Shown here: in pieces, positions 3,381 through 26,543 of the stretch
Layout of the letters: each line of letters begins with the position of its first letter
How positions within the stretch are numbered: position 1 is the first letter of the stretch
IMG/VR virus record: IMGVR_UViG_3300050019_000085
Coordinates: 1 to 37,649 of that record
DNA length: 37,649 bases
From: a virus
Reading direction: 5' to 3' (one strand)
Notes under the pieces: generated by a model
Databases searched by the model: none
The model's input: only the letters and a program-made list of their open reading frames with translations
What the model was told of the DNA's origin: nothing
Translations under genes and position numbers: made by a program

Positions 3381-3455
3381 GCGGAACTAGCTCAGTGGCA
3401 GAGCGTCTGCTTTCCATGCAGAAGGCCGTGGGTTCAAGCCCCGCGTTCCGCTCCA
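3381..3455 (+). tRNA. tRNA-Gly(TCC)
   Basis: A complete cloverleaf. The acceptor stem GCGGAAC pairs with GTTCCGC, the D-arm contains GCTCAGTGGCAGAGC, and the anticodon stem TCTGC/GCAGA holds the loop TTTCCAT with anticodon TCC. The T-arm is GTGGGTTCAAGCCCC, and the 3' CCA is encoded. Confidence 0.95.
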
Positions 3456-3575: not shown

Positions 3576-3683
3576 ATGCCTGACGCGAGAGCATTGCTCT
3601 GCAAGGTGCTGGCCGCCTGCTTTATCGTAGGTGTCGTTGTCGGTTTTTTGCTCGGCATCATCGCTGCGGCCTTAGCAAGTTAG
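3576..3683 (+). CDS. possible 35-aa single-pass membrane peptide
   Basis: A short frame between the two tRNAs encodes a 35-residue peptide with a charged N-terminus (MPDAR) and a continuous ~22-residue hydrophobic stretch rich in Val, Leu, Ile, Gly and Ala. The stop codon overlaps the first base of the tRNA-Thr gene. There is no clear ribosome-binding site. It could be a real membrane micropeptide or a chance frame. Confidence 0.3.
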   Translation: MPDARALLCKVLAACFIVGVVVGFLLGIIAAALAS

Positions 3684-3758
3684 CTGGCGTAGCTCAGTTG
3701 GCAGAGCCGTCGATCCGTAATCGACATGTCGGTGGTTCGAATCCATCCGTCAGCTCCA
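3683..3758 (+). tRNA. tRNA-Thr(CGT) with C at position 33
   Basis: The cloverleaf is complete. Acceptor GCTGGCG pairs with CGTCAGC (one G-U pair), the D-arm is normal, and the anticodon stem GTCGA/TCGAC encloses TCCGTAA. The T-arm is GGTGG-TTCGAAT-CCATC, and the 3' CCA is encoded. The loop places C rather than the nearly universal U at position 33, with anticodon CGT. Confidence 0.9.
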
Positions 3759-6005: not shown

Positions 6006-6722
6006 TTGTTCATCTACTTGATAACTAACACGGTAAACGGCAAGTACTACGTGGGGCAGACCATCAAGGCGGTCGCCACACGTATGCGCTTCCACTGGGC
6101 TCAGGCGCGTGCGGCACGAGACAAGATGCGACTTCACCGCGCCATGCGGAAGTATGGACCAGACGCTTTTGAATGGGACGTGCTTGCAACTGCGGACTCG
6201 GTCGAGCAGCTAGACCTTCAGGAGCGATTATGGATAATTGCGCTGGATGCGCGCAATCCGGATGTGGGATATAACCTAGCTGCGGGCGGTGAAGGTGGTA
6301 TCGGAGCAACCGCTTGGTCACAGGAGCAGCGGGACATACACTCATGTCGTATGTCTGGACCAGCAAATTATTTCTTCGGTAATCCACAAGGTCGCTTCGG
6401 AACAGAAGCAGCAATCAAGTGGGCTGCTGAACATCCAGAAGATAAGAGTGCCATCTGTAAACGCGCCGCAGATATAAGTTGGGATGGCACAACCACAGAA
6501 GAGCGAACAGCAAGAACCGCTAATATGCGCTACGCGAGGTGGGCTAAAGGTGTAACACGCACGTGGAATAGTGGTAGCAAAGAACGGCTGCGTGCATCGG
6601 TAACTGGCGCAAGGAATCCGTTCTTCGGTAAGCATCACACACCAGAATCAATAGCAAAAGCAAACGCCACGCGAGCAGCAAGGCGCGAGGCAAGAAAGGA
6701 GGCTATCAATGGGATGGCTTAA
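6006..6722 (+). CDS. GIY-YIG homing endonuclease, free-standing
   Basis: A 238-aa protein. The N-terminal ~90 residues form a GIY-YIG nuclease domain: IYLITN and KYYVGQT are the GIY and YIG strands, R and H residues follow in the first helix, a Glu lies in LQERLWI, and GYNLAAGG closes the domain. The C-terminal part is basic and contains a NUMOD3-type DNA-binding motif (NPFFGKHHTPES). The start is TTG 6006. The last 14 bases overlap the start of the portal gene, whose Shine-Dalgarno sequence lies inside this gene. It is not inside the downstream intron but immediately 5' of the intron-bearing gene, which suggests it may promote inheritance of the intron-containing locus. Confidence 0.9.
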   Translation: MFIYLITNTVNGKYYVGQTIKAVATRMRFHWAQARAARDKMRLHRAMRKYGPDAFEWDVLATADSVEQLDLQERLWIIALDARNPDVGYNLAAGGEGGIGATAWSQEQRDIHSCRMSGPANYFFGNPQGRFGTEAAIKWAAEHPEDKSAICKRAADISWDGTTTEERTARTANMRYARWAKGVTRTWNSGSKERLRASVTGARNPFFGKHHTPESIAKANATRAARREARKEAINGMA

Positions 6723-6800: not shown

Positions 6801-7100
6801 AATGTAAGTTTGCCGGAGAGGACAAAGAGAAGCCACAAACGTGGTCCGGCTGAATGGCTTCTCGACATCTTGGACATAACCGTTTAGAGATGTATAAACT
6901 GTGTGAATTCGGTGGAACTCCAGAACGGACAATACCGAGCCAAGCCTCAGTGATGAGGAAGGTGTAACGACTATCCCGAAAGGGAGTAGGGGTCAGCGAC
7001 CCCGAAGCGCACAGCCCCAAAAGCACCGGGTGATGAGATAGTCTGCTCTGCATGGGAACATGCAGAGGTTACGTGGAAGCGACGTAACCGCAACAACTGG
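6801..7100 (+). ncRNA. group I intron in the portal gene
   Basis: This ~300-nt self-splicing intron has no ORF. P1 is formed by exon TTGTCCTT (6793-6800) with the guide GAGGACAA (6818-6825), ending in a U-G pair at the splice site. P2 is GAGAAGCC/GGCTTCTC. The core includes CGGT...ACCG (P4-like) followed by GAGCCAAGCC. P7 pairs GACTATC (6969-6975) with GATAGTC (7037-7043). Small hairpins TCCC/GGGA and GGGGTC/GACCCC lie between the P7 strands. P9 is CTCTGCATG/CATGCAGAG, then GTTACGT/ACGTAAC. Taking G7100 as the terminal G restores the portal frame. The exact 3' site could differ by a few bases. Confidence 0.85.
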
Positions 7101-8775
7101 TAACGGCGGGCGAACGGACTCTGGCATCCGAGTCAGCGAAATGACTGCGCTGCAAGTCGGCACGGTGTTCGCTTGCGTGAACGTCATCTCGGATGGCGTG
7201 TCCTCGCTTCCCCTGCACGTTTATCAGCGCTCGAAGATTGGCGGTCGCGACAGCAAGACCTTGGCTGTTGACAGTCAGCTCTATGATCTTATCCACCTTG
7301 AACCGAACCCGGAAATGACCAGCGCGGTATTCTTCAAGGTCGCAATGGTTCACGCCTTGTTGTGGGGCAACGCTTACTCGGAAATTCAGCGGAACAACAG
7401 CAACCAAATCATTGCCATCTGGCCACGCAACCCGGCGCGCACTCGTCCTATCCGCATTCTTAAACCGATCACGTTTCAAGGTGACCTCCTCCCTGCCGGG
7501 ACGCTTATGTACGAGACTTCCGATTCGATGATGGACTCGTCCAGTTACACGGTCAACGAGAACCCGGAATCAATGAGCTACGGATTGCGCCGGTTGGTGC
7601 TTGCGGAGGACATGATTCACGTCCCCGGCTTGTCACTCGATGGCCGCCTCGGACAGTCTACTGTATGGCTGGCCCGGCAGGCTTTTGGCATTGCCTTGGC
7701 CACTGAAAAATATGGAGCTAAGTTCTTCGGAAACGGTGCACGCCCTTCAGGCATCCTTACGATGCCGAACAAGCTGGAGGACAAGTCAATCGAAACCCTC
7801 CGGCGTTCGTTCGCTGAGGCGCACGGCGGCGAGAACGCGTTCAAGGTTGCAGTCCTTGAGAATGGTGTCACCTACACCAAGATTGCTGCGACCCCTGAAG
7901 AGGGTCAGATGCTTCAGCTTCGCAAGCACGAGCGCGAAGAGATCGCCGCGATATTCGGCGTTCCCGCACACATGATTGGTGCATCCGAGAAGGGTGGCAA
8001 GTCGAATGTTGAACAGAGCAGCATCGAGTTTGTGCTATACTGTCTCCACCCTTGGCTGCGTCGCTTCGAGCAGGAGCTTGAACGTAAGCTCTTCTCCAGC
8101 ATGGGCCGGTCGGCGGGTAAGTTCTTTGCGAAGTTCGACACCCGGAAGTTGATGTATCCGGACGCGGCTGCCCGCAGTTCTTTCTATTCACAGGGCAAGC
8201 AGTGGGGCTTCTTGAACACCAACATGATTCTCGAACTGGAGGACATGAATCCAATCGATAACCCGAAGGTGGGCGAGACGTTCTGGCAACCGATCAACAT
8301 GCAGGACGCTGGTGACCCACAGAAGCTGGGTGCATCAGACCAAGCCGACCTTGACACGAAGTCGAAGCAGGCCGTCGCAGAGCACGCCGCGCAGATGACG
8401 CAGGAGACAGCACAGGTCGCGGCAAAGACAAACATGAAGGTTGCAGAGCAGGCGCACGGACATGCGATTGCCGCAGCGCAAGTAAGCAACAAGCATGAGC
8501 AGACGATGGCGAAGCTGGGACACCCGCCGCAAGCGGCTGCGCCGACTGCTGCCGCACCCGCGAAGCCCGGCACCCCGGCAGCACCTGCTGCCGCGCCAGC
8601 GCCCGGCAAGACGGCCAAGCGCTTCTCCAACGCACCCGAAGTCAAGGAGGCGATGGAGGCGGCGATGAACGAGGGCTTTGTGTTCGTGACGGCACTGAAC
8701 GAAGAGGGCGCGACCACCTACCGCTACCTGAATCCTGATCGCCGCGAATTGCTCATCACCTTCGAGCCTCGATAA
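7101..8775 (+). CDS. portal protein, exon 2
   Basis: This exon encodes the main body of an HK97-type portal protein, the dodecameric ring at the packaging vertex through which DNA enters and leaves. It has the family's opening (SGIRVSE..AL..GTVFACVNVISDGVSSLPLHVY), the clip/stem region, and GKSNVEQ..IEFV. After about residue 420 a long Gln/Ala-rich helix and a Pro/Ala linker lead to a ~50-residue C-terminal domain that is not part of the basic portal fold. With the intron removed the protein is about 588 aa. An internal ATG at 7060 lies inside intron P9 and is not a credible start. Confidence 0.93.
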
Positions 8776-8819
8776 TAACCACGAAGGTATTGACGAACTG
8801 CTTACCAACAGAGAAAGCT

Positions 8820-10757
8820 ATGTCTGAAGAGCAACTGAGGTTCGACGACACGCCGCCAGCACCTTGGTATGGTTGCGATCTCGACGGCACGCTCGCTGTT
8901 TCAGACGGCACCCATGCTTTAGGTGTCATCGGCGCGCCCGTTCCGAAAATGGTTGAGCGTGTGAAGCAGGCACTCGCCGAGGGCAAGGACGTCCGCATCT
9001 TCACTGCTCGCATTGCAGACCTCACCGGCGTAGATTTAGAAACCGAGATAAGAGCGATTCAAGAGTTCTGCCTTGCGAACATCGGTCGCGTGCTTCCTGT
9101 GACTTGCACCAAGGACGCGGGTATGGTGGAGTTGTGGGACGACCGTGTGCGTCAGGTCGAAAAGAATACAGGTGAGTTCGTTGTCGGTCGCGCCGAGGTC
9201 CAGCAGCCGGTCGCCCACAAGTATGGAACTACGCAGGCAGACATTCCTGATGGCCCGGCGGCAGACGCGATTGAGGCTGTCCGCGCGCTTATAGCAGATG
9301 AGGATTTAGCAGGGCAGGGAAAGAATGTCGAGGGGAACCACGTAACAGTGCGCTACGGCTTCTTCGGCAACGACTGTGGGAGCATCGCATCTTTCCTCTC
9401 CAAGCAGAAGCCGTTCGAGGCGATGCTGGGCAAGACGGAGATGTTTCCGGCAACTGAACATTCGGATGGTGCGGCAGTAATAAAGGCCCCTGTCATATCG
9501 CTGGATCTGCGGCGCATCAATGCACAGCTTGCCGAGCAAGGTCCGTTCAAGCCGTCCGACTTTGAATATAACCCACATGCCACCATCGCATACGTCAAGC
9601 CGGAGGTTGCCGAGAAGTATGTTGGACTGTGCGGAACCGAAGGAAAGACATTCAAGGTCGACGGCATAACTATCAATAAGTCAAACGGTCAGTCGCTGTT
9701 CGTGAAGCTCACCGGCGGCAATACCACTGAGTTCGGTCCGCAGGGTGAGCCTATTATAACACGTTATTCCGAGGACCAGCCACGCGACGATCACGGCAGA
9801 TTCGCAGCCGGTGGCGGAAGTGCGCAGGAAAAGCCAGATGAGGTGAAGCAGGTCGAATCATTGCAGAGTAAGATGCGAGACCTTGAGAATCAAGCAGCCG
9901 CAATCGAGACTGGCGGAAAACCCGGCGAACAGCTACAAAAACTTTCAGAGATAGCATCGGCCCATCAAGACCTGTATAAACAGGTTCAGGAACTGAAGAA
10001 CGGAAGCGTCTACAAAGAGTGGACCGCTCAGCAAGAGAAGCAACAGTCGATTGAGCACAAGGCCGAGATAGAGAAGGTCGTCGAACGCACGGCGAAGGAC
10101 ATGAACTACGAGCGCGTGCAGGTGCTTAGTAAGGAAGATAGTGTCTACCCTAAAGGCTTCGATGTTGGCGGCAAGCACTTCAATGCTGGAGGTTATGCCA
10201 ACTTGACGACCGGACAGATAACCATCATTTCGACTGCCACGCATGCTGACTATGTGCCCGCGATTCTTGCTCACGAGATAGAGCACGAACGGTTCCAAGG
10301 CGCTCTCAACGCCTACAACTTCGAGCATCAAGCACTGATGAAGATACCCGGCGACGAGTTGTTCGGTCGTCCCGGAGAACCGAACACTGGTGTGCTCAGG
10401 GCTAGCGGAGAAGTGAAGCCTGAATACCAGAACAAATACCCGGTGACCACGCTGCTGCAGAAGTCATTAGAGCAGGATAAGTTCAAGCTTTATGACAGCG
10501 ACGGCTGCACGAAATACAGTGAAGCTTACTGGAAGCATTACGTTGACAACGGTCGCAAATCGGCGGACGGCGAGCGAGCTATGCACGAAACGCTCGCAGA
10601 GATAGCCAGCGTGAAGGTTACCACCGGAAAATTCCCAGAGAAGAGCACCACTGGCTGGCGAGATTTGTATCGTGCGGTCGACAAGGTTGCCAAGAGCGGA
10701 AATGCTCTGTGGCCGAACGGACTTACACCCAAGCACTATGTGACCGGGGAGGACTGA
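8820..10757 (+). CDS. three-domain HAD phosphatase / 2H phosphoesterase / HExxH peptidase fusion
   Basis: A 645-aa protein between portal and prohead protease. Residues 1-120 form a HAD-type phosphatase with DLDGT (D20, D22), the FTAR motif (T62), and TKD...WDDR (K98, D107/D108). Residues ~135-300 form a 2H phosphoesterase with two HxT motifs (H174-V-T176 and H253-A-T255). Such enzymes hydrolyse 2',3'-cyclic phosphates or cyclic and oligonucleotides; the anti-CBASS protein Acb1 uses the same chemistry. A motif YSEDQPRDDHGRFA (from residue 316) leads to a coiled coil. A zinc-peptidase-like domain follows, with HEIEH at 485-489. The stop overlaps the next start (TGATG). A role as a packaged, injected effector is inference; the domain calls are firmer. 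Confidence 0.8.
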   Translation: MSEEQLRFDDTPPAPWYGCDLDGTLAVSDGTHALGVIGAPVPKMVERVKQALAEGKDVRIFTARIADLTGVDLETEIRAIQEFCLANIGRVLPVTCTKDAGMVELWDDRVRQVEKNTGEFVVGRAEVQQPVAHKYGTTQADIPDGPAADAIEAVRALIADEDLAGQGKNVEGNHVTVRYGFFGNDCGSIASFLSKQKPFEAMLGKTEMFPATEHSDGAAVIKAPVISLDLRRINAQLAEQGPFKPSDFEYNPHATIAYVKPEVAEKYVGLCGTEGKTFKVDGITINKSNGQSLFVKLTGGNTTEFGPQGEPIITRYSEDQPRDDHGRFAAGGGSAQEKPDEVKQVESLQSKMRDLENQAAAIETGGKPGEQLQKLSEIASAHQDLYKQVQELKNGSVYKEWTAQQEKQQSIEHKAEIEKVVERTAKDMNYERVQVLSKEDSVYPKGFDVGGKHFNAGGYANLTTGQITIISTATHADYVPAILAHEIEHERFQGALNAYNFEHQALMKIPGDELFGRPGEPNTGVLRASGEVKPEYQNKYPVTTLLQKSLEQDKFKLYDSDGCTKYSEAYWKHYVDNGRKSADGERAMHETLAEIASVKVTTGKFPEKSTTGWRDLYRAVDKVAKSGNALWPNGLTPKHYVTGED

Positions 10758-10909
10758 TGATTACACGCGAAGTGGTGGGCGGCAAGCAAGCGACGGTGTC
10801 ACACCTGAATGACAAGTGGGAGCCGTGCGACCCGAAGGACGCCACGCTGGTAAAGGTGGTCTTTGACGACGGCGGGGTGCTGTTTGGAACCCGCACGCCG
10901 AAGCAGTAA
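10757..10909 (+). CDS. 50-aa hypothetical protein
   Basis: Starts within the stop of the preceding gene (TGATG overlap) after GGGAGG, so it is translationally coupled. The 50-residue sequence is mostly beta-strand-like with no membrane segment or cysteines. It lies between the HAD-2H-peptidase protein and the prohead protease. No family is recognised. Confidence 0.7.
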   Translation: MITREVVGGKQATVSHLNDKWEPCDPKDATLVKVVFDDGGVLFGTRTPKQ

Positions 10910-10912
10910 GCA

Positions 10913-10936
10913 CCCGTCACACATACCCGATAATAC
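10913..10936 (+). promoter_or_regulatory. CCCGTCACAC motif, site 3
   Basis: CCCGTCACAC at 10913-10922, then 8 nt, then TAATAC (with GATAAT overlapping). It lies directly upstream of the prohead protease start at 10947. Confidence 0.55.
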
Positions 10937-10946
10937 AGGGACACCT

Positions 10947-13190
10947 ATGCCTATTGAAGAGCGTTTCTCCGAGGACCAGCCGCGTGACCCAGACGGCAAG
11001 TTTGGGAGCGGAAGTTCAAGCTCTCCCCACGAGAATGAAGCTGTTAAAAAGGCCGGTGGTTTTGTGCCGCACGCCCCAGAGAGTGCTCCGGTCACTTCGC
11101 TCGCCGGGCACGTCGCTGCTGACCACGAAGTTCTAGCCGAGCACATGAACGAGTTTCTGAAGGAAGGAAACGTTGACTCCTACCACGCCTTCAGTGTGGC
11201 CGACAAGGCGCTCTCGGGTGGTAAGGTTTCAAAGGGGCAGGCTCGCATCGCACATGACGTGCTGGTCGAGCATCACAACGAAGCTCAGAAGGAAGGCAAC
11301 AAGGCGTTGGAAAACACGCTGAAGGCCGCGCTGGATAAATTGTCCGGAATGCGGAGCCTGTCACAGATACCTGAAACAACGGAGAAGTATATGTCAATCG
11401 AAAGACGTTATGCAACAGAACTGCGCGCTGGCGACACTCAAGGAATCGAAATGGTTCTCACAGGGTATGCCGCCCGGTTCAACACCCCATCGAAGGACCT
11501 CGGCGGGTTCCGCGAGACGATTTCCTCTGGCGCTTTTACGCGTGCTCTGGCAGAGAAACAGGACGTGGTTTGCCTGTTTAACCACGGCATGAAGAGCGAT
11601 GTTGTGCTTGGCCGGACAACTGCCGGAACGCTGGTGGTTACCGCTGATGAAAAAGGCCTCTTCTTCCGTTGCCAGCTTGACCCGAACCAGCAATCGCACC
11701 GCGACCTGCACGCTTCTGTGAAGCGCGGCGACATCAACGAGTGCAGTTTTGCATTCACTTCGAATGGCCCGAACGGTGACGACTGGACCGATGCGAAGGA
11801 CGAGCGCGGCAACTGGTATATTTCCAGAATGCTGAAGGATGTAAACCTCTTCGACGTTTCTGCCGTAACACGTCCTGCTTATAGTAACACATCCTTGCAG
11901 GCTCGGAGCGAAAACGTGACCCCTGAAATCAGAAGCATCATTACCAATCTGCTTGAGAAGCGCGGCGTGAAAGCGCCGGTCGAAAAGCGAGACGAGAGTG
12001 TCGAGCAGACCATGCAATGTATCAGCAAGTGTCTTGCACAGAAATTCCCGCAGCCGACCACCGGCGGGGAATGCTGCTCTAACTACGGCATGTATTACAT
12101 CGTCGCGACTTACGATGACAGCGTGATTGCCTGCAATAACTACGGCCCCGGACCGAACGAGTATGTCCGCATTCCGTATGTGGCCGCGCCTGATCTTGAC
12201 AACGACAACGACGTCGACGAATACATTTTCGGGACTCCGGTTCCAGTCGAGCAAGAGTGGGTGCCGTCCGAACGTGCCGTCGCGAAGTTCGAGGAAATCC
12301 GAACGATAAAGGCTGAGCATCTTGCCGCGATTGCCGCCGGTCACACTGCTACTGCGAAGGAAGCAGCCGCAGCCGCCGAGCAGCACACCAATACCGCTGA
12401 TGGTCACTCCGCAGCCGCTGCAGCCGTTCAGGCCGCCGCCGACGCCGCGAAGGAAAAGGAAGAGGCCGCCAAGCGCTGCATGGACAGTATGGGCGATTGC
12501 AGCGAGAAGCGTTGCATCTGCCAGAACCGCATGGTCAATCCGGAGGACGTTTACTACGGTGATGACGAGAACGAGTGGGATTACAATGACACCGAGGACG
12601 AGCGGGCACTAAAGACTGCCCGGCGCGTTGAAATCCGCAAGGAAGCCGTCCGCGCCATGCCTCAAATCGGCGAGGTTCGCACGAAGCTGGTTGGCGGCAA
12701 GCACGTTGCTCTGCGCGCCTTCGCTCACGCGGGCGACCCAGAAAAGACAGAGACTTGGAAGCTGCCGACGCACACCGCCGACCACGCGACTCAGTCACTT
12801 AACCGTGTTGATGCTGTGAAACTTCCTGCCGACAAGGCCATCGAAGCCCGCACGAAACTTGTGGCTTCCGTTGCGAAGTATGCACCGGCACCGATTGTCC
12901 CCGGCGAGGACCGCTCGATCAAGTATCTCGTGACCGAGAGCGATGGAACCACGCACCTGCCCGTCAGCACTGAAAGCGGAACGCCCGACCACGGCCTCAT
13001 GGGCAACGCTTGGGCAGCACTGCACGGTGGGTTCCGGGGCAATGAGTATGCCGGGCCGAACAAGTCTGAAGCCATCTCGAAGCTGAAGGCGATGTATAAG
13101 TCCGAAGGTATGGACGAGCCTGACAGCCGTATGAGCAAGGAAGAAATCGAAGAGATGGAACTTCGCTTCCGGGCAGCGGTAGCAATCTAA
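10947..13190 (+). CDS. prohead protease (S78/HK97 family) with long extensions
   Basis: A 747-aa protein, several times the length of a basic HK97 protease. The N-terminus repeats the motif found in the previous large protein (RFSEDQPRDPDGKF), followed by a ~120-residue helical region. The protease core spans about residues 165-320, with LTGYAARFN, catalytic His in FNHG (H213) and Ser in ECSFAF (S267). It cleaves scaffold and capsid N-termini during maturation. Downstream are an Ala-rich coiled coil, a cysteine cluster (CMDS..CSEKRCICQN), and a C-terminal module with DGTTHLP...DHGLMGNAWAALHGGFRGN that recurs in phage head proteins (DUF6582-like, from memory). The extensions could serve as internal scaffold. 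ATG 10947 follows motif site 3. Confidence 0.85.
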   Translation: MPIEERFSEDQPRDPDGKFGSGSSSSPHENEAVKKAGGFVPHAPESAPVTSLAGHVAADHEVLAEHMNEFLKEGNVDSYHAFSVADKALSGGKVSKGQARIAHDVLVEHHNEAQKEGNKALENTLKAALDKLSGMRSLSQIPETTEKYMSIERRYATELRAGDTQGIEMVLTGYAARFNTPSKDLGGFRETISSGAFTRALAEKQDVVCLFNHGMKSDVVLGRTTAGTLVVTADEKGLFFRCQLDPNQQSHRDLHASVKRGDINECSFAFTSNGPNGDDWTDAKDERGNWYISRMLKDVNLFDVSAVTRPAYSNTSLQARSENVTPEIRSIITNLLEKRGVKAPVEKRDESVEQTMQCISKCLAQKFPQPTTGGECCSNYGMYYIVATYDDSVIACNNYGPGPNEYVRIPYVAAPDLDNDNDVDEYIFGTPVPVEQEWVPSERAVAKFEEIRTIKAEHLAAIAAGHTATAKEAAAAAEQHTNTADGHSAAAAAVQAAADAAKEKEEAAKRCMDSMGDCSEKRCICQNRMVNPEDVYYGDDENEWDYNDTEDERALKTARRVEIRKEAVRAMPQIGEVRTKLVGGKHVALRAFAHAGDPEKTETWKLPTHTADHATQSLNRVDAVKLPADKAIEARTKLVASVAKYAPAPIVPGEDRSIKYLVTESDGTTHLPVSTESGTPDHGLMGNAWAALHGGFRGNEYAGPNKSEAISKLKAMYKSEGMDEPDSRMSKEEIEEMELRFRAAVAI

Positions 13191-13191
13191 G

Positions 13192-13215
13192 CCCGTAACA
13201 TTTTCGTGGTAAGAA
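13192..13215 (+). promoter_or_regulatory. CCCGTAACAT motif, site 4
   Basis: CCCGTAACAT at 13192-13201, then 8 nt, then TAAGAA, which runs into the ribosome-binding site AGAGGA of the first capsid gene. This is a one-to-two-base variant of the repeated motif. Confidence 0.4.
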
Positions 13216-13226
13216 GAGGAATGACT

Positions 13227-14381
13227 ATGTCCAAGTATCTAACACCAGCGCAGCAAGAATTGCTCAAGGCAATGGCCGAGGCAAATGAGGTCTCGCAGCG
13301 CTCGGAAGTCACGAAGCGCGACGAAGCCCGCTTGAGTTTCCTGCTCGCCAAAATTAAGGCTCTGACTGCCGGTGCTATCGGTGGAAAGATCGACGATGAG
13401 TGCAAGCGCTTCTTCTCCGACCTTCTCAAGGGCCATGAAATGCGCACGGTAACGTACATGGAAGCCGGTGCGCAAACACCTGCTTACACGGCTGGTCCCG
13501 AAGGCGGCTTTCTTGTTCCGCAAGAGTTCCACGACTCCGTCGTCACCGGAATGAAGCAGTTCGACCCGCTCCTAAACAAGGACATTGTGACGCTCATTGA
13601 GTCCGGCAATGGCAGCTTGAAGCCTTACAACATCCCCGGATGGGATCTGAGCACGTTCAAGGCTGTGAAGGTCGCTGAGGGCGTGCAATCGCCGTCCCTG
13701 ACCCCTCCTGTGGCCGCCACGACTATCCTCAACGGCTTCAAGTATATGGCCAGCCTTCCGGTATCGGTCGAGTTGGAAGAGGACTCGTTTGAGACCGTTC
13801 AACTGCTCATGTCACTCGGCTACGGTGTTGGCTTCGCGCGCGGCATCGGCGAGGACCTCGTGACTGGAAATGGCATCAGCGCCCCACAAGGCGTGCTTAC
13901 CGGCGCATCTGACAGTGGTGTGGTCACCGCGAACACTGGCAAGGTTGTTCTCGATGACATCGAAGATGTATATTTCTTGGTGGACCGCTATCACCGTGCT
14001 GCTCCAAAGTGTGCGTGGCTGATGAACGACATTGCTTACGAGCAAGTTCGTAAGGCTGTTGATGGTAATGGCCGTCCGCTGCTCAATGTCGCAAAGGACA
14101 TGGAAGTTCTTATGAGCAAGCCGGTCTACATTTCACCGTCATTGCCAGAATACAATCCGTCGCTCGGAACACAGGCTGATGGGTCCTTCTGCGTGTTCGG
14201 CGATTTGTCTTACATGTTCGTTCGCGTTTCCAAGCTGGTTATTAAGCGCCAGTGGCAGGTGCCCGGATACGTTGAGAACGGCGTGGCGCTCTACACCGGC
14301 ATCATGCGCGCAGATGCAAAAGTGTTTGACCCGACTGGCGGAACTACCCCGCCAATCGTGTTCGCAAATTTGAAGAGTTAA
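13227..14381 (+). CDS. major capsid protein 1 (HK97 fold)
   Basis: A 384-aa protein. A short helical N-terminal region (~75 residues, shorter than a typical delta domain) is followed by the HK97-fold core: GGFLVPQEF starts the N-arm/E-loop region, then ISAPQGVLTG and the P- and A-domains, with a final strand containing GIMRADAKVFDP. It forms the icosahedral shell or a related shell. AGAGGA upstream of ATG 13227 fixes the start. It is clearly different in sequence from the second capsid-type gene at 15074. The next gene starts 14 nt downstream, so the ferritin-like protein should be made from the same mRNA. Confidence 0.9.
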   Translation: MSKYLTPAQQELLKAMAEANEVSQRSEVTKRDEARLSFLLAKIKALTAGAIGGKIDDECKRFFSDLLKGHEMRTVTYMEAGAQTPAYTAGPEGGFLVPQEFHDSVVTGMKQFDPLLNKDIVTLIESGNGSLKPYNIPGWDLSTFKAVKVAEGVQSPSLTPPVAATTILNGFKYMASLPVSVELEEDSFETVQLLMSLGYGVGFARGIGEDLVTGNGISAPQGVLTGASDSGVVTANTGKVVLDDIEDVYFLVDRYHRAAPKCAWLMNDIAYEQVRKAVDGNGRPLLNVAKDMEVLMSKPVYISPSLPEYNPSLGTQADGSFCVFGDLSYMFVRVSKLVIKRQWQVPGYVENGVALYTGIMRADAKVFDPTGGTTPPIVFANLKS

Positions 14382-14395
14382 CTTAGGGGGAAGTC

Positions 14396-14857
14396 ATGCA
14401 AGGAAACGCCGAAGTAATTGCAACCCTTCAGGCCGCATTGTCAGCGGAGGGTAAATTGAACCTGCAGAGTCGTCTGGACACCCAGCAACTGAAGTTTATG
14501 GGAGTGCCGAAGCTCGCATGCAAGTTCGATGGGATAGGGGACGACGCACACTGCTACCTTAAGCTGGTAACAAAGCGCTGTCTCTTCCTCAACGGCAATC
14601 CGAGCTATTCAGTTCCTGAACTGGTGCGCATCACCAACGTTACCGACATGATTAAGAACACGTTGGAGTTAGAGTTGGGCATCGTCGGACCCTATGAGCA
14701 GGCCGTTCAAGTCGCACAGAAGGCGATGGATGACACGACCAGAAACCTGTTCGAGCACTTGCTGAAATGGCACCAGAAGCATGTGGGTTGGCTGGAAAAG
14801 CAACTTCGCCTCATCAATATTCTCGGAGAATCGGACTACATTTCCGAGAAACTGTAG
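14396..14857 (+). CDS. bacterioferritin-like protein
   Basis: The 153-aa length and whole-protein pattern match bacterioferritin, the 24-subunit iron-storage cage: QGNAEVIATLQAAL at the start, CLFLNGNP, TLELELGI in helix C, and HVGWLEKQL...ILGESDYI at the end. By alignment from memory with E. coli Bfr, the ferroxidase ligands E18, the helix-C Glu and the final His (H129) are kept. The ligand equivalent to E127 is replaced and the E51/H54 region (GDDAHC) is altered with a small insertion. Met52, the haem ligand, is absent. The catalytic centre is therefore partly degenerate. AGGGGGAAG precedes the ATG. It lies 14 nt after capsid protein 1, an arrangement like an encapsulin shell with ferritin-like cargo. 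No cargo-loading peptide is obvious at the C-terminus. Confidence 0.8.
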   Translation: MQGNAEVIATLQAALSAEGKLNLQSRLDTQQLKFMGVPKLACKFDGIGDDAHCYLKLVTKRCLFLNGNPSYSVPELVRITNVTDMIKNTLELELGIVGPYEQAVQVAQKAMDDTTRNLFEHLLKWHQKHVGWLEKQLRLINILGESDYISEKL

Positions 14858-15073
14858 GCGCAAGCTTTTGTATTTGGAAGGCTTAGCACGTTTCCAAAAA
14901 AATCGGTCAGGTATTGAAAGAGCCTCAATACCCGTCACACCGATGTGGGACTATGTATGCGCCGCCAAGGCGCTCCCTGCCCGAGGAAGGTTGTTCCGGG
15001 CAACTCTCGCAGTAGACAACCCCCGAACAACTTAGAAGCAAATTCGCCCTATTGGGCAAGAGGAGATTTTTCC
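14858..15073 (+). promoter_or_regulatory. 216-nt leader of capsid gene 2 with hairpin and motif site 5
   Basis: No gene is credible here. GGTATTG (14910-14916) pairs with CAATACC (14926-14932), and this hairpin overlaps CCCGTCACAC (14931-14940), which is followed after 8 nt by GACTAT. A smaller GCCC/GGGC hairpin (about 15045-15056) lies just before the ribosome-binding site AGAGGAG. The long leader suggests independent, strong expression of the second capsid gene. Confidence 0.5.
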
Positions 15074-16453
15074 ATGTCGCGCCTGAAAACCATCATGGAG
15101 GACCGCGCCAAGCTGCACACCGACGCAGTTGCTCTGTTGAACGCCGATAAACAAACCCCCGAGACCCGCTCCGAAGCTACCCGGATGCTGGCCGAAGTCG
15201 AGACGCTGAGCAAGGACATTGCCAACATTCAGCTCGCCGACAAGCAAGCTGCCGAACTGGCTGCCGCGAACGGTGCTCTTCCGACCGAACAGCGTGGCGG
15301 AACGTCGACCGCCGAGGAATATCGCTCCGCATACAGCGAGTGGCTGCTTAAGGGCAAGCCCGGCTCGCGTGGTTCTTGCAAAGGCGGCACGGCACCCGAG
15401 CTCCTGTCGAAACTTGACCAGACTCAGGTTGCCTTCCGCAACATGACGCAAGAACAGCGCGACCAGCAAGCTGGCACGCAGAGCATCACCTACACCGAAG
15501 GCAATCTGGGCGGCTACTTTGTCCCGGCTGGCTTCGTGCAGGACATCGAAAAAGCCACCAAGTATTTTTGCCCGCTGCTCGATGGCACGACCATTCGCAT
15601 CATGGAAACGGCGACCGGTAACGTTCTGCCTTATCCGACCAGCAACGACACGAATCAGGCGTGGCATCTGACGTCCGAAACCACGCAGGTTGTGGACAAA
15701 GGCACCGCTGCCAACTACCCGACGACCGGCACACTGCCGAGCGACGATGCTGGCAACGTTCTGGCTTCGCAGATCACCTTCGGCGCGTTCAAGGGCTCGA
15801 CCGGCCTCGTCCGCGTATCGCTCGAACTGATGCAGGACAGCGCATTCAGCCTCGAAGCGTTCCTGAAGGAAGCCTTCGGCATCCGCTTGGCTCGTGGCTA
15901 CGAATATTACCTGACGCAGGGCTCCGGCACCAACGCGCCCTTCGGCTTGGTGCCCGCAGTTGCAGCCTCCGGCGCAGTTGCCGTGACTGCAGCCGGTTCC
16001 AGTGCGAACGACGGCATCGTCGCCAACACGGGAGTAAACAGCATCGGCTATCAGGACATCGTGAACCTGATTCACTCCGTCGACCCGACCTACCGTATCG
16101 GCGCGAAGTTCATGTTCAATGACCAGACGCTGGCTCACCTGAAAACGCGCATCGACAAGTTCGGTCGCCCGTTGTGGGTGCCTTCTGTCCGTGAGAGCGA
16201 GCCCGACAAAGTTGCGGGCTACTCCTACGTCATCAACCAGTCCATCGCCGGTATCGCTCCTTCAGCGACAGTGGCGCTGTTCGGCGCATTCAACAAGTTC
16301 ATCGCCCGCAAGGTGCGTGACCTGTCGATTGCACGACTGGACGAGCGGTTTGCGGATTTCGGCGAAGTCGCCTACATTGGCTTCAGCAGAATCGACAGCC
16401 GGTTGGTCGACGCTGGCACGCACCCAATCAACGCCCTCGTGATGCACAGCTAA
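15074..16453 (+). CDS. major capsid protein 2 (HK97 fold)
   Basis: A 459-aa protein with the complete HK97 layout. A ~110-residue charged helical N-terminus corresponds to the delta (internal scaffold) domain that the protease would remove. The core then begins at TEGNLGGYFVP and contains GTNAPFGLV and the late SRIDSRLVDAGTHPINALV segment. AGAGGAG 6-10 nt before ATG 15074 marks the start. The full-length delta domain, long leader and strong terminator make it the better candidate for the main shell protein, leaving the role of protein 1 open. Confidence 0.93.
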   Translation: MSRLKTIMEDRAKLHTDAVALLNADKQTPETRSEATRMLAEVETLSKDIANIQLADKQAAELAAANGALPTEQRGGTSTAEEYRSAYSEWLLKGKPGSRGSCKGGTAPELLSKLDQTQVAFRNMTQEQRDQQAGTQSITYTEGNLGGYFVPAGFVQDIEKATKYFCPLLDGTTIRIMETATGNVLPYPTSNDTNQAWHLTSETTQVVDKGTAANYPTTGTLPSDDAGNVLASQITFGAFKGSTGLVRVSLELMQDSAFSLEAFLKEAFGIRLARGYEYYLTQGSGTNAPFGLVPAVAASGAVAVTAAGSSANDGIVANTGVNSIGYQDIVNLIHSVDPTYRIGAKFMFNDQTLAHLKTRIDKFGRPLWVPSVRESEPDKVAGYSYVINQSIAGIAPSATVALFGAFNKFIARKVRDLSIARLDERFADFGEVAYIGFSRIDSRLVDAGTHPINALVMHS

Positions 16454-16930: not shown

Positions 16931-17182
16931 ATGCTGGTCCGGATGAAAACAGGATGTGTCGAGGACGTTCACGACTTCGTCGGCGAGAGGCTTATTCGGG
17001 AAGGTCGTGCCACGCGCGTACCTTCAAAAAAGGAACTGATTCTGCAGGCAGAAAATGCAGGCGGCCCGGCAGCCACGGTCGGTATTGAAATGGCAACTCT
17101 TGAGCCGAAGGCGGAGTGCGCTGTTGTCAGATTTGTTCGCGGACCTAAGAGCCCGAGAAGGAATAGCTTATGGCAGGGATAA
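16931..17182 (+). CDS. small hypothetical protein of the connector module
   Basis: An 83-aa protein. Its first half (VRMKTG..EDVHDFVGERLIREGRATRV) resembles small phage proteins that often precede the head-tail connector gene and contain an 'R-x-L-I-x-x-G-x-A' pattern. The last 13 bases overlap the next gene. TAGGGGGG upstream serves as ribosome-binding site. Its function is not known. Confidence 0.65.
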   Translation: MLVRMKTGCVEDVHDFVGERLIREGRATRVPSKKELILQAENAGGPAATVGIEMATLEPKAECAVVRFVRGPKSPRRNSLWQG

Positions 17183-17895
17183 TCGTTCAAACGGACCCGA
17201 CGTCCGAACCAGTAACACTGGCGCAGGCAAAGAACTTCCTGCGAGTCACGGTTGGCGATGACGACGCACTCATAAGTGTGCTCATCATGGCTGCGCGTGA
17301 ATCGTGCGAGAACTTCTGCAGCCGGAGCTTCGCCATCAAGGGCTATCTACAGACGCTGGACTCCTTTCCTTATTACACCGACACGGTGATGAGCCAGATG
17401 GCCTACCCGCCCAGCTATTATGCTCTGCCGATGTACTCGACAACTCTGTGGAACTATTCTCAGATGATTAAGCTCTACATGCCGCCCGCGATTTCTGCTG
17501 CTATTGATTACACAGACCCATTGGGCGAAAACAAAACGTTGGTGCAGGACGTCGATTTTCTTCTTGATAATGTGTCGGAGCCGTCCAGAATATTCCCCAT
17601 GCCCGGTATCATGTGGCCACCGGTTCTTTACTGCCCGAATGCAGTCCGCATTCGATTTAAGGCAGGCTTCGGTTCGACGGACACTGACCCAGCACCGATT
17701 GATGGCGACGTGGCGCAGGGCTCCGGAAGGCAGCCGATGCCGGGCAGGGTGAAGCTTGCCATCATGCAGCTTCTGGCCGGGTGGTATGAGAACCGCGAAT
17801 CACTGACTGAAGCGAATATGAAAGAGATGCCGCAGCATGTGAAGATGATTCTCTGGTCGCTGCGCATCATGGATTTACAACCGACCCGTGGATAG
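17170..17895 (+). CDS. head-tail connector, gp6-like
   Basis: A 241-aa protein. Its N-terminus (PVTLAQAKNFLRV, DDDALISVLIMAARE, CENF) is the signature of HK97 gp6-type connectors, which form a ring under the portal and start the neck. A ~90-residue middle insertion rich in Tyr and Pro precedes the conserved end (VKLAIMQLLAGWYENRE). Start ATG 17170 overlaps the preceding gene. The -35 region of the endonuclease VII promoter lies inside its 3' end. Confidence 0.85.
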   Translation: MAGIIVQTDPTSEPVTLAQAKNFLRVTVGDDDALISVLIMAARESCENFCSRSFAIKGYLQTLDSFPYYTDTVMSQMAYPPSYYALPMYSTTLWNYSQMIKLYMPPAISAAIDYTDPLGENKTLVQDVDFLLDNVSEPSRIFPMPGIMWPPVLYCPNAVRIRFKAGFGSTDTDPAPIDGDVAQGSGRQPMPGRVKLAIMQLLAGWYENRESLTEANMKEMPQHVKMILWSLRIMDLQPTRG

Positions 17896-19018: not shown

Positions 19019-19753
19019 ATGGCGTTGAAAAATATATTGACGGCCAACTTGCTTGACCCGCAACGGGGGCGATACGTCCCCGGCGATTGCTACTACTGCC
19101 GCGATACCAAAGAAACATGGTGGGTTGCGGCGGACGGCTCACTTATTTGCCTCAATGACCTTTCCTTGGGGGTCAGCGCCACTGCCCGTGCTTACGGCCC
19201 ACAAGGGCCGCCGGGGCGCGACGGTGCGCCGTCTACGGTACCCGGCCCACAGGGTATGCCGGGAAGGAACGGCGCTGATGGTAAGGATTCAACCGTACCC
19301 GGCCCACAAGGGCCGCCGGGGCCGCCGGGCGTGTCAATTGTCGGCCCGCGCGGTGAAAGGGGCCTGAATGGTCGCAACGGGTCGGATTCAACCGTACCCG
19401 GCCCACAAGGGCCGCCGGGGCGCGACGGTGCGCCGTCTACGGTACCCGGCCCACAAGGGCTTGCAGGTAAAGATGGTCGCAACGGGTCGGATTCAACCGT
19501 ACCCGGCCCACAAGGGCCGCCGGGTGTGGCTGTTATAGGGCCACGAGGAGAACGTGGTGAACACGGCATCCCCGGAAAGGATGGACGTGATGGTCAGCCG
19601 GGACGAGATGGCAAGGACGCCGACATGTCTGTCCTGCTTAAACAAGTTGCTGATTTGAAAGTGACAGTGCAAGCATTGATTGATATGAACAAGAACGCCG
19701 GACTGTACATTGACTGGCTGAAAGCTAAGAGGTTGGCACGTGCAAACTCCTAA
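19019..19753 (+). CDS. collagen-like fibre protein
   Basis: A 244-aa protein with a ~60-residue N-terminal head containing CYYC, then ~140 residues of Gly-X-Y repeats (GPQGPPG, GRDG, GERG) broken by short STVPGPQ joints, and a C-terminal coiled coil (VADLKVTVQALIDM). Collagen-like phage fibres trimerise, with the coiled coil as clamp. It starts 4 nt after the adaptor gene and overlaps the next gene by 14 nt, so the two fibre proteins are probably made together. Its place among head-tail genes suggests a head or neck fibre. Confidence 0.85.
   Translation: MALKNILTANLLDPQRGRYVPGDCYYCRDTKETWWVAADGSLICLNDLSLGVSATARAYGPQGPPGRDGAPSTVPGPQGMPGRNGADGKDSTVPGPQGPPGPPGVSIVGPRGERGLNGRNGSDSTVPGPQGPPGRDGAPSTVPGPQGLAGKDGRNGSDSTVPGPQGPPGVAVIGPRGERGEHGIPGKDGRDGQPGRDGKDADMSVLLKQVADLKVTVQALIDMNKNAGLYIDWLKAKRLARANS
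19195..19525 (+). repeat. tandem repeats encoding the collagen-like shaft
   Basis: A unit containing CCCGGCCCACAAGGGCC and GCCGCCGGGG recurs about five times at ~50-100-nt spacing with near-identical bases even at third codon positions, implying recent duplication. GGCCC/GGGCC makes each unit internally palindromic. Confidence 0.85.
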
Positions 19754-23086: not shown

Positions 23087-23824
23087 ATGGCAAACAAAGT
23101 TTATGCTGACAACGCAATCGTTGTCTATGATGCAAACGCTGGCACGCTGCACCCCGGCGTAGGGTTAGTCCTTGACGGGAAGAATCAAACGGCGGCAGTT
23201 CCGCAGACTACTATCGCCGTACCGTCTGTCAGTGGGATTTATCTCATTACACTGTACCTGCGTATTGCTACACCCTCATCGGGTACGGGAGCGACCAGCA
23301 CAATAGGACCAGTGACCGTACATTTTTCCTGTGCGGATTGTCTAGTCCCTGTGCAACTCATTTCGGGACTCCTTTTGCAAGATGGAAACTATTCTCAAAC
23401 GAATAGTGCCAACACACAGAACGTGTCCCTATCAGGTTCTGTCCTAATCAATGCCCTCGCAGGCCAGCCTATCAGTATTGACATTGGATATGCTAGTTCT
23501 GGATTGACACCTACGTGTACGGCTACGTGTACGTTGACTTCCGCTGCGTGGAATGTTGCGGGTATAGAAGTCCGTGGCACACCTGTGTACGTAGGCGGGA
23601 ACGGCGTTTCGCAATCTGGTGGAGCGACGACTGAGACGGTGACGTATTCTCCTACGTCGGGTAATGCCACAGTGCTGTACTTCTCTACGGGTTCGGCTAT
23701 TACCGGGTTGACTGTAAAAGACAACCTCAATCACACTTTGTCGGCTGGACCGACCTCAGGTTTGCTGTCTTCATTTTACCGGAAAAACGGCGTAAAGCCC
23801 CTGCCTTCAGGCATGGGGATATAA
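23087..23824 (+). CDS. fibre or appendage protein, C-terminus altered by an inserted element
   Basis: A 245-aa reading frame. The first ~165 residues resemble the jelly-roll end of the large fibre (PSVSGIYLITLYLRIATPSSGTG...), suggesting a shared origin. The next ~60 form an Ig-like or small beta domain (TVTYSPTSGNATVLYFSTG). From about residue 231 the frame enters the miniature element at ~23779 and ends in element sequence. Removing ~279 bp would give an alternative ending SSFYRRRLA and a stop at 24076, so the native protein was probably ~236 aa. The last residues are therefore foreign but few. Confidence 0.7.
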   Translation: MANKVYADNAIVVYDANAGTLHPGVGLVLDGKNQTAAVPQTTIAVPSVSGIYLITLYLRIATPSSGTGATSTIGPVTVHFSCADCLVPVQLISGLLLQDGNYSQTNSANTQNVSLSGSVLINALAGQPISIDIGYASSGLTPTCTATCTLTSAAWNVAGIEVRGTPVYVGGNGVSQSGGATTETVTYSPTSGNATVLYFSTGSAITGLTVKDNLNHTLSAGPTSGLLSSFYRKNGVKPLPSGMGI

Positions 23825-24057
23825 GGCGTATTCCGCCGCAAGGCGGAAAGTGTTTGCACTTCGCACAAAATCGTGATACTATTGTTGCATGGTGAGGCGA
23901 AAACCAAGCCAAGCCTAAGCAAATGTTGCACCGAACTAAACCTCGCGGCGGGGCACGCCGAGAGGATAAACGCTTGCGGACAGTGTGTCAGTCTGGCGAA
24001 AGCCAGCAACGCTGGTTGAACCAAGAATCCCCCGCCTTTAGGCGTGGGGAGTGTCAA
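23779..24057 (+). mobile_element. IS200/IS605-type miniature element, copy 1
   Basis: About 279 bp. The left-end hairpin is CCCCTGCC-TTCA-GGCATGGGG (23798-23818) and the right-end hairpin is CCCCCGCC-TTTA-GGCGTGGGG (24029-24049), ending in GTGTCAA. There are no terminal inverted repeats of the usual kind and no target duplication, as in single-strand IS200/IS605 transposition. Inside are a promoter (TTGCAC 23854, 17 nt, TACTAT 23877), ATG 23889 opening a 9-codon frame (MVRRKPSQA), TTCCGCC/GGCGGAA-type hairpins, and a structured 3' part. It looks like an internal deletion of a tnpB-bearing element, possibly keeping part of its guide RNA. A T-rich TTTA flanks the left end. Confidence 0.85.
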
Positions 24058-25709: not shown

Positions 25710-26543
25710 ATGCTCATTTACCTAGTGACGAATCTGGCCAACGGTAAACTCTACGTTGGCCAGACGCGGCTGACACTGGCGCGGCGCTGGAAGCAACACG
25801 TTCGTGATGCTAGGAATGGTTCGACCACCTTGATTGGCCGTGCCATTCGCAAGTATGGCGTGGATTCCTTTTCGCTTGCGGTTCTCTGTACTTGTTCTTC
25901 GCAGGAGGAACTCGACACGCGCGAGCGAGAGCACATCTCCAGCCTCGGCACTCATTCATCAACAGGTAAAGGGTACAACCTGACCGCCGGTGGTTTCGGC
26001 GGTCATCATGGTGCTGTCGGTCCTATGACGGGCAAGCACCATTCTATTGCCACGCGTGAACGAATGCGGAGGGCACATACAGGAATTGACACTCCCCACG
26101 CCTAAAGGCGGGGGATTCTTGGTTCAACCAGCGTTGCTGGCTTTCGCCAGACTGACACACTGTCCGCAAGCGTTTATCCTCTCGGCGTGCCCCGCCGCGA
26201 GGTTTAGTTCGGTGCAACATTTGCTTAGGCTTGGCTTGGTTTTCGCCTCACCATGCAACAATAGTATCACGATTTTGTGCGAAGTGCAAACACTTTCCGC
26301 CTTGCGGCGGAATACGCCTTATATCCCCATGCCTGAAGGCAGGGGCTTTACGGCGCTTTTCCGGTAAATAACAATAATTTCGGCAAGACGGCAACTGACG
26401 CTCAAATAAAGGCTGCGCGGAACAATGCCCGTAAGATGGGGCTTGCTAACAAGGGGCGAACGCATGTCTTTATTCCGTCCGCCGCATTCTCGGAAAGATT
26501 ACGTATTGGTTGGGCAGCACGCCTCGGCTACTATGGGGCGTAA
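25710..26543 (+). pseudogene. GIY-YIG homing endonuclease split by a miniature element
   Basis: The 5' part (25710-26085) encodes a GIY-YIG domain: LIYLVTN, KLYVGQT, RKYGVDSF, EREHI and GYNLTAGG, then a NUMOD3-like segment ending ...RMRRAHTG. It is cut by the element at 26086-26364. Beyond it, the same frame resumes with NNNNFGKTATDAQI and runs to a TAA at 26541-26543. Removing 279 bp joins the parts as TGI-NNNNFGK, a natural NUMOD3 sequence, so the insertion can be read back precisely. The intact protein would have been about 184 aa. As it stands, only a truncated protein with the nuclease domain can be made. Confidence 0.85.
26086..26364 (-). mobile_element. IS200/IS605-type miniature element, copy 2
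   Basis: The reverse complement of copy 1, nearly identical over ~279 bp, with differences noticed only at the left tip. The right tip (TTGACAC on the + strand) is at 26086 and the left tip is next to TAAA at 26365. A long open frame across it on the + strand appears in both copies only because the copies are identical, and is not a gene. It disrupts a GIY-YIG gene. Confidence 0.85.

Follow-up and report, generated by a model that had tools for sequence, protein, structure and literature searches.

The window analyzed here is a whole IMG/VR virus record of 37,649 bases that carries a late region of the standard tailed-phage type. Its head module encodes two HK97-fold major capsid proteins (MCP1 and MCP2) and, between them, a bacterioferritin (Bfr)-like protein:

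7060..8775, + strand: portal protein (PF04860), not followed by the Bfr-like gene in the window
8790..10757, + strand: large ORF with a 2'-5' RNA ligase/2H phosphoesterase-like domain, filling the window's post-portal slot
10863..13190, + strand: prohead protease of the S78 type, listed as the longest ORF; translation probably begins at an ATG near 10947, past ACCCGTCACAC at 10912
13206..14381, + strand: MCP1, HK97-fold major capsid protein 1, 391 aa (PF05065, 1e-30; TIGR01554)
14396..14857, + strand: Bfr-like gene, 153 aa, ferroxidase-degenerate (pattern E18/A51/H52/Y54/E93/H126/H129), with profile and fold matches
14858..15073, + strand: gap from the Bfr-like gene to MCP2, holding a conserved ACCCGTCACAC at 14930-14940 that also stands ahead of MCP2 in relatives
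15074..16453, + strand: MCP2, HK97-fold major capsid protein 2 (PF05065, 6e-38; TIGR01554); listed ORF from 14945
17170..17895, + strand: head-tail adaptor (Ad1/gp6-like), with which the head module ends

The Bfr-like ORF opens with an ATG, has AGGGGGAAGTC immediately 5', and begins 14 nt after the MCP1 stop. A further 216 nt separate its end from the likely start of MCP2, for which the ATG at 15074 is likelier than the GTG at 14945. The initial annotation had placed the gene 14 nt past one capsid gene and ahead of a second, and both neighbors are indeed of the HK97 type. An Rfam search of the gap ahead of MCP2 returned no known RNA. The element in this gap, ACCCGTCACAC, occurs six times in the window with at most one mismatch (2296, 5969, 10912, 14930, 24689 and 36796; 0.63 expected), always on the + strand. 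Several copies are followed by a TATNAT-like hexamer, and the element also stands ahead of MCP2 and other genes in relatives L040-L051. ACCCGTCACAC is possibly a phage-specific promoter; if so, the Bfr-like gene would be transcribed together with the protease and MCP1, and not with MCP2.

Several other features of the window deserve mention. A tag, RFSEDQPRDPDGKFASG, is common to several ORFs between portal and MCP1 (window positions 9777 and 10977) and recurs in L040-L043, L045, L047 and L048, sometimes repeated inside one ORF; it may possibly serve as a head-targeting or packaging tag. We looked for the candidate head-targeting tag RFSEDQPRD, common to neighboring ORFs of the lineage, on the Bfr-like protein, where it is absent. 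A group I intron (Rfam RF00028, 6791-7065) lies directly upstream of the portal gene and touches its start, adjoined by a GIY-YIG endonuclease ORF (6006-6722). Two tRNA genes (3381-3452 and 3683-3755) lie between the small and large terminase genes, and a collagen-like GPQGPPG repeat protein (19019-19753), with copies in relatives, is encoded between a head-tail connector and a large structural ORF. Finally, a 283-nt inverted repeat with 99% complementary arms 2 kb apart (23775-24057 and 26086-26368) is either a mobile element or an assembly artefact.

The ORF at 14396-14857 is a bacterioferritin homologue, though not an ordinary Bfr. Profile searches matched its product to Pfam Ferritin above the cut-off (4.9e-13) and to the bfr profile TIGR00754 over residues 1-151 (2.9e-16), yet its 59.8 bits fall short of the curated TIGR00754 cut-off of 125.55. 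Solved bacterioferritins align over the full length of the protein (best 6e-14), so the end-to-end bacterioferritin pattern first noticed in these 153 residues holds. As a monomer, the protein is predicted by AlphaFold2 to form four helices and a short helix E with a mean pLDDT of 95.5, that is, the four-helix ferritin fold together with the helix E typical of Bfr. The top PDB matches of this model are bacterioferritins (TM ~0.97, rmsd 1.1 Å, 154 alignment columns), with identity to host-type Bfr of only ~25-32% in the fold matches. PHROG families gave no match to the protein.

The resemblance to Bfr (TIGR00754; Streptomyces coelicolor 5xx9/7y6f, E. coli 1bcf) thus covers fold, length (TM 0.97) and the short helix E, and extends to an N-terminal MxGxxEVI-type pattern and the E18, E94 and H130 positions. 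Unlike the window protein, Bfr is acidic and has E51, H54, E127 and the haem ligand Met52. The window protein also scores below the bfr cut-off, and its family carries the phage-specific DDTTRNLFEHLLKWH on helix D and is encoded in phage head modules.

We mapped the metal ligands by sequence and fold alignment; the phmmer alignment has one gap, which we set in the B-C loop. Three Bfr ligands are retained, E18, E94 (E93 here) and H130 (H129 here), and three are replaced: E51 by Ala, H54 by Tyr and E127 by His126. The position of haem Met52 is occupied by His52, so the partial loss of ferroxidase ligands and the missing haem Met that the initial annotation described are both confirmed. An alignment of H52 with H54 was ruled out, as the fold match is nearly ungapped; it is also contradicted by both profile alignments, which set H52 on Met52 and Tyr/Phe54 on His54. 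Haem binding by H52 was judged unlikely because the M52H variant of E. coli Bfr is given as haem-free in PMC3184983, which cites Andrews et al. (1995).

The same pattern runs through the family, for which 26 sequences were analyzed, reducing to 15 representatives at 85% identity. Position 51 is A/T/S and position 54 is F/W/Y in all 26, the E127 position is His in 25, and the haem Met52 position is His in 22 and Gly in 4. E18 (25/26), E93 (26/26), H126 (25/26) and H129 (24/26) are widely retained, and all four occur together in 24. Given known Bfr chemistry, a normal di-iron ferroxidase would not be expected, since both bridging carboxylates, E51 and E127, are absent; the leftover E18/E93/H126/H129 cluster could form one mononuclear metal site. 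In one member, L029, whose gene also occupies the post-portal slot, E18, H126 and H129 are gone as well, yet the prediction for this protein is still the same helical bundle (pLDDT 92.8).

These residues weigh heavily on whether the gene is an auxiliary metabolic gene, encoding a working iron store or detoxifier during infection as has been considered for the bfr of a lake-sediment virus (PMC10904782). The Bfr-like sequence and fold, the purifying selection described below and the joint retention of four ligands in 24 of 26 sequences would all suit such a role. Set against them are the lost bridging carboxylates and H54 (E51 and H54 being absent throughout the family), the His or Gly in place of the haem Met, the near-neutral charge, and L029, which lacks nearly all ligands. 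The window protein has a pI of 6.4 and a net charge of -1, compared with pI 4.9 and -13 for Streptomyces Bfr (residues 1-151). Because the ferroxidase is lost, the evidence argues against iron storage, and we regard a metabolic role as improbable. The lake-sediment gene itself, a bacterioferritin homologue on a viral contig (a Vrana Lake vOTU), is likewise under purifying selection; unlike the window gene, it is reported as Thermoproteota-derived and presumed iron-oxidising, and a link to a head module goes unmentioned in the excerpted text of that paper (PMC10904782).

The initial annotation had also raised a capsid-ferritin pair, perhaps an encapsulin-like compartment. In such a system a ferritin would be packed into an MCP1 or MCP2 shell, either as a separate iron compartment or within the phage capsid. 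The gene does adjoin an HK97-fold capsid gene in the window, and the EncFtn encapsulins share this arrangement of a shell gene beside a ferritin-like gene, a likeness confined to this window. Unlike a shell without packaging genes, however, the window encodes terminase, portal and protease, the full phage packaging machinery, and the related loci too have the usual packaging genes of phages; the protein is of the Bfr type and not of the EncFtn type, and its C-terminus is the short helix E, with no conserved extra tail in the alignment that would resemble a cargo tail. Moreover, MCP1 homologues 60-66% identical to that of the window occur in nine loci, most of which also have MCP2, and the family profile finds nothing in any plus-strand ORF of these nine loci, even at E 10. 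Since these relatives have the same capsid genes without the Bfr-like gene, and since the usual neighbor of the family is the portal, the proposed pairing was not borne out, and a packaged cargo is highly improbable.

The space between the two capsid genes is itself variable: L042 has almost nothing there, and small unrelated ORFs occupy it in L040, L041, L045, L047 and L048, so the Bfr-like gene is one cargo among several at this site. L040-L042 and L045-L048 keep a diverged pair of HK97-type capsid genes. The two usually stand in tandem, separated by a gap of variable content; L046 has other structural genes there instead.

Relatives of the Bfr-like protein, 44-62% identical, are encoded in 27 further IMG/VR loci, most of them fragments, two of which (L021 and L031, from one metagenome) may be halves of a single genome. 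All 25 family members scanned match both Pfam Ferritin and bfr. Two scans of 84,980 species genomes with exact short peptides found no family member in bacterial genomes or prophages. As both the IMG/VR and the bacterial-genome scans depend on exact short peptides and could miss distant copies, the family size is a lower bound and absence elsewhere is unproven. The portal alignment was too diverse to serve for a scan of the collection. Five tblastn matches in annotated phages (22-26% identical) were set aside as too weak to count as relatives: the two inspected look like cellular bfr genes, one lying on an Acinetobacter chromosome-like contig and the other, of actinobacterial type, having a bfd-like ORF upstream of it, and two Salmonella matches fall in records of more than 500 kb. 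The Bfr-like genes are best read as a new, phage-specific family that derives from bacterioferritin and lacks the ferroxidase.

A search of these relatives for a conserved capsid-ferritin pair identified the portal, not the capsid, as the conserved neighbor. In 25 of the 26 other loci with visible upstream sequence, the Bfr-like gene is the next sizeable gene past the portal gene, overlapping the portal stop by 4 nt in 14 of these 25; in three non-overlapping loci, 190-461 nt separate the two genes and may encode a small ORF. The single exception, L010, has the gene after a MuF-like gene, so a head-module position is kept across the loci. A placement after a capsid gene occurs only in this window among the loci found. 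The 25 portals are of two types, 21 PF04860-type and 4 lambda-type, the latter identified by PF05136 in L024 and L025 and by same-sized ORFs in the same place in L026 and L027, so that two unrelated portal families are both followed by the Bfr-like gene. Downstream in the carrier loci lie proteases of the S78, ClpP-like or S49 type and capsids of PF05065 or PF25209. This repeated placement beside unrelated portals is our main argument that the role of the protein is tied to head assembly.

The Bfr-like gene is nevertheless mobile and dispensable in relatives. The portals of L003 and L019 are 98% identical and their Bfr-like proteins only 65%; at the DNA level, portal and protease are mostly 90-98% identical, most of the Bfr-like gene 57-64%. 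The pattern is reversed between L002 and L013 (portal 24%, Bfr-like protein 70%). The contrast between L003 and L019 indicates that portal and Bfr-like protein need not match each other closely. Close relatives L033, L034 and L040-L048 lack the gene altogether, and in L033, whose portal is 70% identical to that of L013, portal and protease genes overlap directly.

At the same time, the gene is under strong purifying selection. Omega is ~0.07-0.12 in most of the informative, less saturated pairs, with similar values for the portals of such pairs; pairs with dS above ~1 are saturated and were left out of the estimates. Conservation is concentrated in helix D, where residues 110-126 have a mean entropy of 0.21 and 11 of 17 positions are invariant, compared with 0.9-1.7 in other segments. 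This helix carries the phage-specific DDTTRNLFEHLLKWH, a motif that the cellular Bfrs shown in our alignments lack, and the patch does not change between phages whose portals and capsids are unrelated. This constancy makes self-assembly or a shared host target likelier than binding to the portal or the shell. Selection also speaks to whether the gene could be a neutral or selfish passenger, a small gene in accessory hot spots of head operons with no role for the phage. Its easy exchange and loss, and the other ORFs that occupy such variable gaps in relatives, are what a passenger would show, but a low omega is not, nor is a helix-D patch that stays invariant in phages with at least two types of portal, which leaves this explanation with very little probability.

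A late host-directed effector is the main rival explanation: the protein would stay free in the cytoplasm and act on host iron or ferritin. It could, for example, co-assemble with the bacterioferritin of the host and, lacking ferroxidase and haem ligands, disable the cage, its location in the head operon serving timing and dose only. The loss of catalytic and haem ligands with retention of the Bfr fold and N-terminus agrees with this scheme, as do the swapping of alleles between near-identical head modules and the dispensability of the gene. Mixed Bfr/Ftn cages are known, moreover, and heteropolymer structures are among the fold matches (9bts, 9iig, 9h1u). However, the gene stays behind the portal in unrelated head modules, which a free effector would not require; the protein has lost the acidic net charge seen in host-type Bfr; and co-assembly is uncertain at ~25-32% identity. 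On balance we consider an effector unlikely.

We favor the reading in which the Bfr-like protein is an accessory head-assembly or virion protein, to which we assign a probability of roughly 0.4. The initial suggestion that a degenerate ferritin may have been reused as a structural part still leads. More specifically, and more doubtfully, several tailed-phage lineages may have made a bacterioferritin into a ferroxidase-dead head part that is co-produced with the portal and resides in or on the prohead or virion. The protein would be produced in step with the portal and would self-assemble through the invariant helix-D surface into all or part of a ferritin cage, and the E18/E93/H126/H129 cluster would bind at most one metal ion, probably in a structural role. 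For the window, this reading has the gene arriving as a cassette behind the protease-MCP1 gene group, at its 3' end, in the variable space that separates MCP1 from MCP2. Counting against a head protein are the absence of the gene from L033 and from the nine MCP1 relatives, the loose match between portal and Bfr-like protein in L003 and L019, a helix-D patch that is indifferent to portal and capsid type, and the missing RFSEDQPRD tag.

The ferritin-like protein gp217 ('ferritin') of a Vi01-like phage was detected by mass spectrometry in a phage preparation, and its authors put it in one operon with a phage morphogenesis gene (PMC10892097). Unlike the window protein, gp217 is assigned by Phyre2 only, is grouped with a tail completion gene and was proposed to serve tail iron; infection of TonB- and FeoB-deficient strains by this phage was unchanged (PMC10892097). 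Two peptides of host Bfr turned up in CsCl-purified phage in another study, which calls for caution in reading such mass spectrometry data (PMC9206674).

The ferritin fold is also shared by ferritin/Dps-like proteins and fusions of uncultured phages in BFVD. These differ from the window's family in being Dps- or ferritin-like rather than Bfr, in identities of ~10-18% in the fold matches, and in that several are far longer than the fold. Three BFVD entries named 'Prohead protease' (A0A6J7XDU5, A0A6J7WIS1 and A0A6J7WPK9) show the ferritin fold in matches of 138-152 alignment columns, a hint that ferritin and head genes may be linked elsewhere too. In the open-access literature, which our search covered, we found no description of a portal-linked, ferroxidase-dead bacterioferritin family.

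Among protein containers, ferritin cages and HK97-fold shells form two distinct classes. The family described here would be annotated as ferritin or bacterioferritin without having a di-iron centre, which calls for caution in naming every phage bfr an iron-metabolism gene. If the favored reading is true, a disarmed ferritin gene conserved beside the portal gene of unrelated phage heads would mark a rare instance in which viruses reuse a cellular cage protein. If the protein instead acts on the host, it would represent a new way of attacking host iron storage.
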